NCBI GenBank assembly: GCA_016342645.1
Contig: JAEINX010000028.1
Coordinates: forward strand, 1-39,021
Length of the DNA stretch: 39,021 bases
Reading direction: 5' to 3'
From: Bacteroidales bacterium
GTDB taxonomy: Bacteria; Bacteroidota; Bacteroidia; Bacteroidales; JAEINX01
How positions within the stretch are numbered: position 1 is the first letter of the stretch; each line of letters starts with the position of its first letter. Made by a program: the position numbers and the translations under genes. The notes beneath the pieces are model-generated. The model ran no database searches. It was not told where the DNA came from and was given only the letters and a program-made list of their open reading frames with translations. Shown one piece after another: positions 16,915-29,699 of the stretch.

Positions 16915-17292
16915 ATGAAAATAAATAAATACGAAGATATTTCTCAAATTGATAGAGAAGCAAAAAAAGATTACATTGATCGGCATTCAGCTTTTGTTTT
17001 TTGCGAAAATGAAGCAAAAGCAGGTGAAAAGTTCAAAGTAAAAATAAAAATCGGTGATCAATATAAGCATCCCGATGACCCTGATCATTATATTGCTTGG
17101 GTACAACTGTGGAATGGCGAAAAAATGCTCGCTGAAGCTAATTTTATTGAAGGTGCTTTAGGGAACCAAGCCGAAAATTTGGAAGTTGATTTCTACATTG
17201 TTCCTAAAAAGAATATGAAACTTCTTGCTCATGCTTTTTGTACAAAACATGGGCTATGGCAGAGCGAAGAAATTTTAGTTGAAGTGAAATAA
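16915..17292 (+). CDS. Class II superoxide reductase (neelaredoxin-like)
   Basis: 125 residues. The iron ligands His24, His52, His58, Cys109 and His112 (RHSAF, KHPDDPDHYIAW, CTKHGLW) give the Fe-His4-Cys centre. The N-terminal desulforedoxin domain is absent, as in class II. The usual Glu-Lys pair before the first His is replaced by Asp-Arg (IDRH), a variant I believe is common in this subgroup. It reduces superoxide to H2O2, using rubredoxin as donor (encoded at 21492), and the H2O2 then passes to the peroxidases next door. The stop codon abuts the left heptamer array by one base. Confidence 0.88.
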   Translation: MKINKYEDISQIDREAKKDYIDRHSAFVFCENEAKAGEKFKVKIKIGDQYKHPDDPDHYIAWVQLWNGEKMLAEANFIEGALGNQAENLEVDFYIVPKKNMKLLAHAFCTKHGLWQSEEILVEVK

Positions 17293-17293
17293 A

Positions 17294-17377
17294 CAGGATA
17301 CAAGATACAGGATACAGGATACAAGATATTGGATACAGGATACAGGATACAGGATGCAGGATACAGGATGTAAGATA
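17294..17377 (+). repeat. Left array: 12 phased heptamers (CARGATA)
   Basis: Twelve consecutive 7-base units in perfect register: CAGGATA (x6), CAAGATA (x2), CAGGATG (x2), TTGGATA and TAAGATA. It begins one base past the superoxide reductase stop and ends 18 bases before the S23-type ATG. Units differ from one another by 1-2 substitutions but never by length. No spacers, so not CRISPR. It is complementary to the right array at 17785-17886. Confidence 0.9.
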
Positions 17378-17395
17378 AAATAAGGATATATTAAT

Positions 17396-17773
17396 ATGAA
17401 AAGTTATAGAGATTTACAAGTTTATCAATTAGCAAAAAGTTTAGCTATTAAAGTTCACAAGATGTCAATGAACTTACCTAAATATGAATTATATGAAGAG
17501 GGTAGTCAGATTAGAAGATCATCAAAATCTGTGGGAGCTAACATTGTTGAAGGATATGTTAAACGTAATTATAAGAGTGACTTTTTACGGTCAATAATTA
17601 TTGCCTGGGCCGAATGTGATGAAACTATTTATCATCTTGAAATGCTATTTGAAACCGGTTCATTAACAAATGAAAACGAATTTCGTTTTCTAAAAAGTGA
17701 ATACGAAAAATTGAGTAGTATGTTAAATAAATTTTATCAATCAGTATTTGAAAAACATATTAGTTCAAAATAA
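17396..17773 (+). CDS. S23-type four-helix-bundle protein inside a repeat-bounded element
   Basis: 125 residues matching the S23 / 23S rRNA intervening-sequence protein family: SYRDLQVYQLAKSLAIKV, then QIRRSSKSVGANIVEGY and four amphipathic helices. Related proteins are encoded in intervening sequences of 23S rRNA in Leptospira and Coxiella, and the Avd protein of diversity-generating retroelements shares the fold. Their molecular role is unsettled, with nucleic-acid binding suspected. Here the gene lies between superoxide reductase and ferritin genes, has nothing in common with their function, and is enclosed by inverted heptamer arrays. The frame is intact and full length. Confidence 0.85.
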   Translation: MKSYRDLQVYQLAKSLAIKVHKMSMNLPKYELYEEGSQIRRSSKSVGANIVEGYVKRNYKSDFLRSIIIAWAECDETIYHLEMLFETGSLTNENEFRFLKSEYEKLSSMLNKFYQSVFEKHISSK

Positions 17774-17784
17774 TCCAGCTTCAG

Positions 17785-17886
17785 TATCTTGTATCTTGTA
17801 TCTTGGATCTTGTATCCTGAATCCTGAATCTTGTATCTTGTATCATGAATCTTGTATCTTGTATCCTGTATCTTGAATCTTGTATC
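17785..17886 (-). repeat. Right array: 14 phased heptamers, inverted (TATCYTG)
   Basis: Fourteen in-register units: TATCTTG and TATCCTG with GATCTTG, AATCTTG, AATCCTG and TATCATG variants, plus a trailing TATC. They are the reverse complement of the left array. The array starts 11 bases after the S23-type stop and ends 29 bases before the ferritin ATG. In RNA the two arrays could pair over ~80-85 bases, putting the gene in the loop. Confidence 0.9.
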
Positions 17887-17915: not shown

Positions 17916-18431
17916 ATGATTAGCAAAAAAATCGAAAAGGAAATTAATGAACAAATAAATGCTGAATTTTGGTCGGCGTATTTATATTTGTCAATGTCAG
18001 CTTATTTTGTGAGTAAAAATTTGCCCGGCTTTGCAAATTGGATGCAAGTTCAATATCAGGAAGAGATTTCACACGCATTGAAATTTTTTAATTATTTGAA
18101 TGAAAGAGGAGGAAGAGTAAACTTAAAACCAATTGAGGCAGTTAAAACCGAATGGGATAACGAAATTGAGGTGTTTCAGGAAACATTAAAGCATGAACAA
18201 CATGTAACTTTCTTGATAAACAATCTTGTAAATTCAGCTATTGAAGAAAAGGATCACGCAAGCAATAATATGTTGCAGTGGTATGTTTCTGAGCAAGTTG
18301 AAGAAGAAGCTAACGTGGATGAGATTTTACAGCAATTAATATTGCTTGAGGGTAATAAATTTGGTTTATTGATGCTTGATAGAGAATTGAGGCAAAGAAC
18401 ATTTGTTGATGAAACGGTTCAAAATAATTAA
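17916..18431 (+). CDS. ftnA: Ferritin (FtnA-type iron-storage protein)
   Basis: 171 residues from the ATG at 17916. A frame extending to 17880 would use TTG and translate the repeat array. Ferroxidase ligands are in place: Glu17, Glu50, His53, Glu94, Gln127 and Glu130 (NAEFWSAYLYLS, EEISHALKF, SEQVEEEA). It oxidises Fe2+ and stores it in the 24-mer shell, limiting Fenton chemistry. It lacks bacterioferritin haem features. It was probably in one operon with the superoxide reductase before the S23-type element separated them by 623 bases. Confidence 0.92.
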   Translation: MISKKIEKEINEQINAEFWSAYLYLSMSAYFVSKNLPGFANWMQVQYQEEISHALKFFNYLNERGGRVNLKPIEAVKTEWDNEIEVFQETLKHEQHVTFLINNLVNSAIEEKDHASNNMLQWYVSEQVEEEANVDEILQQLILLEGNKFGLLMLDRELRQRTFVDETVQNN

Positions 18432-29130: not shown

Positions 29131-29133
29131 AAC

Positions 29134-29155
29134 GGTGGAAATGCAATGGAAATAC
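29134..29155 (+). repeat. Two left-hand 11-base repeats next to cydB
   Basis: GGTGGAAATGC (29134-29144) and AATGGAAATAC (29145-29155) match the consensus AATGGAAATAC of the long array at 29546-29699. They begin 3 bases after the cydB stop and lie 34 bases before the S23-type ATG. Further left copies, if any, have decayed. Confidence 0.7.
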
Positions 29156-29189
29156 AGAAGGAGTTTTATGAATAATTAAATTTATTATT

Positions 29190-29539
29190 ATGAAATTAGA
29201 GGAACTACAGGTTTATCAGTTATCAATGGATATTGGAGAGAAAGTTTGGAATATTGTTGCTATGTGGGATTTTTTTTCAAAAGATACTATTGGGAAGCAA
29301 TTGGTAAGATCCATTGATTTAGTAGCAGCTAATTTGAGCGAGGGTTATGGTAGATTTCATTATAAAGAAAAAAGAATTTCTCGTATTATTCCAGAGGTTC
29401 CTTATTTGAATCAAAAACATGGCTTACAAAAGCATTTAATAGAAAACTAATATCCGAAGATGAATTTAAATATTTCGAATCACAAATAAAAAATATTTCC
29501 GTAAAACTAAATAACTATATAAAATCAATTGGACAATAG
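29190..29539 (+). pseudogene. Second S23-type four-helix-bundle gene, frameshifted
   Basis: ATG 29190 reads KLEELQVYQLSMDIGEKVW, then QLVRSIDLVAANLSEGYGRF, the S23 signature. At the A6 run in AAAGAAAAAAG (about 29365-29375) the frame is lost and ends early at 29450. With one more A it continues KKNFSYYSRGSLFESKTWLT... to TAG 29537-29539, giving a normal 116-residue protein. The 350-base length is one short of a multiple of three, fitting one deletion. It may be decayed, slippage-corrected or a sequencing error. Unlike the first S23-type gene, it has 11-base rather than 7-base flanking units. Confidence 0.75.
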
Positions 29540-29545
29540 GAATAC

Positions 29546-29699
29546 GATGGAAATACAATGGAAAAACAAAAGAAATACAATGGAAAAACAATGGAAATAC
29601 AATGGAAATACGATGGAAATACAATAGAAATATAACGGAAACACAACCGTATTACAACAGTATCTCAATCGTTTTACAATTGTATTTCAACCGTACCCC
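29546..29699. repeat. Right array: 14 phased 11-base repeats, forward then inverted
   Basis: Nine forward units (consensus AATGGAAATAC, 29546-29644) are followed without a phase break by five units whose consensus, AATCGTATTTC read in the same register, is the reverse complement of the first kind (29645-29699). Thus the array can fold on itself, and its inverted part can also pair with the left pair of units at 29134-29155. It starts 6 bases after the S23-type stop. No spacers between units. Confidence 0.85.

Follow-up and report, generated by a model that had tools for sequence, protein, structure and literature searches.

The interval 17294-17886 of a contig from a Bacteroidales bacterium (JAEINX010000028.1 of assembly GCA_016342645.1; its full 39,021 nt are called the window) is, on balance, read here as a single mobile cassette that has inverted arrays at its ends, contains an S23/IVP gene and was inserted between a superoxide reductase gene and a ferritin gene. 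The layout is almost certainly a recurrent one around S23 genes, and sequence comparison makes it probable that gene and arms form a mobile unit; a putative action of the S23 protein on its own arms is put forward with slightly more doubt than belief. S23/IVP genes are common and have been best known as part of insertions in rRNA genes; together with the repeats, the gene has the look of a mobile element that is widespread and so far undescribed. Among S23-bearing elements the cassette is the intergenic equivalent of the intervening sequences (IVS) found in 23S rRNA. In the open-licence literature no study was found that connects S23/IVP genes to inverted arrays of heptamers, and a description elsewhere is possible. 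Linking S23/IVP genes, the origin of 23S rRNA IVS and the bacterial heptamer excess makes each of the three testable, and the cassettes would supply markers of insertion history.

The gap between the two host genes is made up of 12 heptamers, the S23/IVP gene and 14 inverted heptamers, all features of the window being given here on the + strand. The upstream gene (desulfoferrodoxin/superoxide reductase, SOR; PF01880; 16915-17292) ends with a stop codon at 17290-17292, and the left array of 12 phased heptamers (17294-17377, consensus CARGATA) begins 1 base later. Unit reading, Tandem Repeats Finder (7-mer × 11.0, score 119) and arm alignment were used to define the left array; strict CARGATA was found in 8/12 units, the rest being TTGGATA, TAAGATA and twice CAGGATG. 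The intact S23-type/IVP gene (17396-17773, 125 aa) was identified by its profile match to PF05635 with 94.8 bits at a cut-off of 33.8. The right arm (17785-17886, consensus TATCYTG, inverted with respect to the left arm) contains 14 phased heptamers at 17785-17882, then TATCAAA; 8/14 units are strict TATCYTG and 13/14 are NATCYTG (Tandem Repeats Finder: 7-mer × 14.7, score 143). The ferritin gene (PF00210, 17916-18431) starts with an ATG at 17916, 29 bases beyond the end of the right array. The first-pass annotation, made from the letters and their reading frames, had described 12 and 14 phased inverted heptamers that abut the neighbouring genes at these distances, and both statements were borne out; its units were right in phase and orientation and too uniform in sequence, and the constant unit length that it claimed holds at this locus and fails at others, where units of 7 or 8 nt, rarely 6, 9, 10 or more, were found.

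Alignment of 17288-17377 with 17785-17874 gave inverted arms of 90 nt with 82% complementarity. RNA folding of the interval yielded -190.6 kcal/mol, compared with -119.6 (sd 5.7) in 20 shuffled sequences (z = -12.5), and the predicted fold is a long stem enclosing the S23 gene, as had been proposed earlier. An Rfam scan of the window returned no rRNA; the cassette thus lies outside any rRNA gene, with SOR and ferritin as neighbours. The domain search of the element detected no transposase domain, and among the viral contigs searched there was no relative of the window S23 gene, for which the only relative of solved structure found by sequence was 2rld. Two further contigs of the source genome terminate in long TATCYTG arrays (the end of C189 and the start of C113), which indicates that the draft assembly breaks at such arrays.

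For the survey of the source order, 102 S23 loci (101 scored) from 41 genomes, each relative representing a different family, were compared with 868 control genes on the contigs of the S23 loci; genomes were mostly drafts and gene starts were those of the longest ORF. Control genes included some S23 neighbours, so the flank test is conservative. Matching inverted flanks reached a median score of 20 at S23 loci vs 11 at controls; 58/101 S23 loci exceeded the control 95% level and 32/101 the 99% level. The fold-back intergenic element that had been postulated around the window gene is supported. Short arrays on both flanks were present at 27/102 S23 loci vs 8/868 controls (Fisher p = 1.6e-21). 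In about 40% of S23 loci arms were undetectable. When left and right arms from different loci were paired, the median score was only 11 (99th percentile 22), and the arm match is therefore locus-specific. The array unit was accordingly rejected as a fixed recognition sequence, since units vary by locus and arms from different loci mismatch. Unit length and composition were less variable: the best unit length was 7 in 52/84 stems and 8 in 25/84 (together 77/84), and the 5' arm was richer in G than in C in 49/51 skewed stems (p = 1e-12). At five loci, mostly of one genus (L191, L192, L195, L202 and L177), TGTAAGGAATT followed 8-22 nt on by GTCTTA was seen between left arm and S23 start; as a general promoter-like motif of S23 genes (TGTAAGGAATT-N-GTCTTA) it was rejected, being confined to these five.

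The source genome itself contains about 14 PF05635 genes, most of them between inverted short arrays with one unit per locus (GGCAGT, CTGGATT, GGAGTTTT, AAAGGCT). A second, decayed cassette is located in the window. Its short left array (29133-29165) has about 3 units related to ACAATGGAAAT, its S23 gene (29190-29512) is split by a frame change into PF05635 pieces at 29199-29375 and 29366-29512, and its right side (29533-29695) consists of an 11-mer array of ACAATGGAAAT × 10.4 and then an inverted 11-mer stretch of ACAACCGTATT × 4.8. This gene sits after cydB, and the 11-mer array downstream of it flips orientation at its end.

Occupied and empty sites were compared with orthology called by flank identity. 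Among six species of one genus, three S23 loci were filled in some and empty in others, the gap between the same two genes being approximately 21-68 bp when empty vs 440-500 bp when filled. The window locus gave a similar picture: in two relatives from other families the SOR and ferritin genes are neighbours with a gap of 33 or 150 nt that holds neither element nor array, and the window cassette is thus taken as an insertion; a comparison of such gaps had been proposed by the first-pass annotation. No target-site duplication was seen in the comparisons of empty and filled sites, where the arrays blur the junctions. Locus D showed a gene-free inverted array in one species, a one-way array in two and nothing in one (G109).

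At locus B the S23 gene of one species (G140) differed from the others (dN ~0.37) and so did both arms, although the flanks were 85-93% identical, from which we infer a joint exchange of the gene and its two arms. In comparisons across families, the share of genome pairs with common arms increased with protein similarity, from 0.5-4% of pairs at low similarity through 20% to 60% at high similarity, the last class consisting of five pairs only; plain common descent could account for the shared arms at high similarity. Orthologous S23 genes of one genus had dN/dS values mostly of 0.02-0.1, higher in a few pairs; these genes are under strong purifying selection, and the S23 protein therefore matters to something. 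Tight ongoing concerted evolution of the arms of orthologues was considered and dropped on mixed results: stems of the same locus scored clearly above cross-orthologue stems in L207/L209 and in L162 against its orthologues, and other pairs as well as group A gave no same-locus advantage.

Arrays also occur without an S23 gene. In 1.16 Mb, 88 such arrays were counted, and the window's CARGATA-type heptamer recurs at several other sites of the source genome. Gene-free arrays were more similar to S23 arms from within the same genome than to those from other genomes (p = 3e-4); 11/88 had an inverted partner, with a G-rich 5' arm in 8 of the 9 that showed skew. Array-like sequence was further found at some empty sites (G078, G094 and G066 at locus D, G140 at locus F). 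Because most gene-free arrays are one-sided and some empty sites are array-like, arrays may arise without S23. In regions chosen regardless of S23, the sampled S23-rich genomes had an array density of 8.8 per 100 kb and S23-less genomes one of 0.3 (Mann-Whitney p = 0.005); the underlying counts were 25 arrays in 285 kb of S23-bearing vs 1 in 292 kb of S23-less genomes of the same order, where arrays are thus about 25-fold rarer. This supports a dependence on S23, with genome size and life style as confounders of the genome-level link, since S23-less genomes tend to be smaller. The first-pass annotation had named arrays spread through the genome without a tie to S23 as a result that would count against it; this came true in part, in that CARGATA-type arrays are present at S23-free sites of the source genome, and the association with S23 is nonetheless very strong statistically.

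Outside the order, loci from across the phylum and from named genomes were analysed, and 36/59 stems were reached by ≤1/100 shuffles. The layout was present in Flavobacterium, Robertkochia, Algoriphagus, Nitrospira, an Armatimonadetes MAG, Halonatronum and two CPR lineages (Moraniibacteriota, Parcubacteria), and on cyanobacterial plasmids of Pseudanabaena galeata (AAAAGCT × 15.6), Geminocystis (7-mer) and Nostoc edaphicum (8-mer). No arms were detected in the flanks of the S23 loci of Akkermansiaceae (both loci), Maledivibacter and several cyanobacteria. FTHFS genes of the named genomes had few arrays in their flanks. On the Pseudanabaena galeata plasmid (L409), S23 and the AAAAGCT arrays lie between cas6 and cas4, and on the right side there are AAAAGCC units that point the same way as the nearby array on the left.

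A plasmid of Azospirillum lipoferum 4B carries an S23 gene inside a 23S rRNA gene (RF02541, 2540 bits; L418:1430-1910, where the gene table used shows no feature). Its IVS has inverted arms of 36 nt with 31 matches, composed of 7-mers of the CAGAGGA/CGGATGA type. In the 23S IVS of Coxiella burnetii, according to PMC4990558, tandem heptamers that vary between strains precede S23p, and the IVS is cut by RNase III. As both IVS carry heptamers, the intergenic cassettes and at least the S23-bearing IVS of Azospirillum and Coxiella share their anatomy, and the parallel with 23S rRNA IVS drawn by the first-pass annotation turned out stronger than claimed.

S23-bearing 23S rRNA IVS are accordingly the closest of the known systems. 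Described for Coxiella burnetii (PMC4990558) and as CPR rRNA insertions (PMC11270868), they encode the same protein family as the cassette, have inverted repeats around the gene that can form a stem, as do the arms of the window, and share its heptamers in the two cases above; they are sporadic and thought to have spread horizontally. The cassette differs in its position between two protein-coding genes and in arms that are built as arrays, the unit being particular to the locus, and it is not known to be excised; the parts of the two papers that were consulted report neither S23 cassettes located between protein genes nor inverted arrays flanking such cassettes. Intergenic heptamers have been described as TAACTGA in Beggiatoaceae, Cyanobacteria and Bacteroidetes (PMC4679880) and as GGGAATC in Xanthomonas and GGGGA(T/C)T in Nostoc (PMC4692102). 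These repeats, and cyanobacterial STRR, resemble the arms in their 7-nt unit, their intergenic position and their fast change in length and sequence from relative to relative, and the Xanthomonas and Nostoc heptamers also share the G-rich polarity. The reports on these repeats track one unit and mention no partner gene, whereas S23 arms have locus-specific units and form mirrored pairs at S23. Some hosts of the published heptamers are members of groups with S23 genes, namely Nostoc and, by an X. campestris S23p structure cited in PMC4990558, Xanthomonas.

REP/RAYT systems, fold-back elements and MITEs likewise have intergenic inverted repeats and possible gene-free derivatives. The fold-back- and MITE-like combination of inverted arms with presence and absence at orthologous sites was observed at the three S23 loci of one genus. 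In contrast to these systems, the cassette encloses no Y1 transposase, lacks a conserved foot sequence, has no identified target-site duplication and ends in arms built of short units. All Y1_Tnp matches of the source genome are on contigs other than that of the window, and the arms of the cassette consist of tandem units instead of single palindromes. The bAvd accessory protein of diversity-generating retroelements is a four-helix-bundle protein with the same fold as S23. Adjacency to RVT_1, as in such a retroelement, is absent here, the two RVT_1 matches of the source genome being on C7 and C58 and the window being C188, and the Pfam match of the window gene is IVP.

Mirrored arrays were also found around PD-(D/E)XK nuclease genes of the GxxExxY family (PDDEXK_3, PF13366), with units of 9-10 nt that are often of the CACAGAGGA type, at L094:12780-13151, L127:5185-5616, L419, L420, L421 and L423, from Bacteroides to Gemmatirosa. 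A pitch of 9-10 nt occurred in 7/7 GxxExxY stems vs 4/84 S23 stems, a post hoc comparison with a small GxxExxY sample and another stem threshold. It suggests that unit length is determined by the protein that the cassette encodes; a pitch that follows the gene family, if it holds, would favour a protein that interacts with the arms, by binding or handling them, over a model of slippage only. Tentatively, and with the balance of our judgement against it, small genes of at least two unrelated families, S23/IVP and GxxExxY, might belong to a class of one-gene mobile elements with inverted-array ends and a protein-set pitch (7-8 nt for S23, 9-10 nt for GxxExxY), in which the protein or its system creates and maintains the arrays. 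Such a class, if real, would account for the heptamer excess that many bacterial genomes show, and would bring the intergenic cassettes, the gene-free arrays and the IVS of 23S rRNA under one heading.

For the mobile cassette, the following model is proposed. In single-stranded nucleic acid the arms would form fold-back hairpins, and they would mark the ends of the element; an S23 oligomer might bind them at the 7-8 nt pitch and, together with host enzymes, promote insertion or upkeep; the arrays would grow by slippage in unit steps, and fold-back copying would keep the two arms alike. Slippage alone is the core of an alternative that we consider rather unlikely, in which arrays of 7-8 nt arise genome-wide and S23 elements prefer them as targets, inserting in the middle of an array or palindrome. 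The S23-free arrays, the further genomic sites of the window heptamer and the array-like empty sites listed above agree with such a preference, as does polymerase slippage as a cause of heptamer abundance, an idea cited in PMC4692102. A one-way array used as target would, however, leave direct and not inverted flanks; there is no array in the empty locus D of G109 or in the SOR-ferritin gaps of the two relatives, arm sequence follows the S23 subfamily even where the genomes compared belong to different families, and the GxxExxY cassettes have another pitch.

The arms may instead be selected as double-stranded RNA, which RNase III would cut or which would protect the transcript, with the gene as cargo of the loop. 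This would fit the strong predicted stem (z = -12.5), the arms of the same kind in the Azospirillum 23S rRNA copy, the RNase III cleavage of the Coxiella IVS and the co-directionality of S23 genes with the upstream gene, which was above that of controls (77/87 vs 595/789, p = 0.005); it is judged improbable, because arm differences of the G:U type were not in excess over those of the A:C type (113 vs 151; 20 vs 23 loci), which leaves both selection on an RNA stem and the role in RNA processing suggested by the first-pass annotation unsupported. Very unlikely, in our estimate, is a third arrangement, in which a separate HUH transposase (Y1_Tnp/RAYT) of the host or of IS type acts on the arms as it does on REP palindromes, with S23 as passenger or accessory protein. 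No sequence motif is common to the arms of different loci, and the presence of Y1_Tnp (PF01797) in 20/20 S23-bearing vs 5/12 S23-less genomes of the order (Fisher p = 2.4e-4), which speaks for this arrangement, may reflect genome size. Reverse transcriptase, a DGR-like partner candidate that was rejected, had no such contrast (11/20 vs 6/12). The only Y1_Tnp gene that was read in context (L080:18191-18652) lies between long inverted blocks of REP-like palindromes (ACCATAATATCGYGCC), not 7-8 nt arrays.
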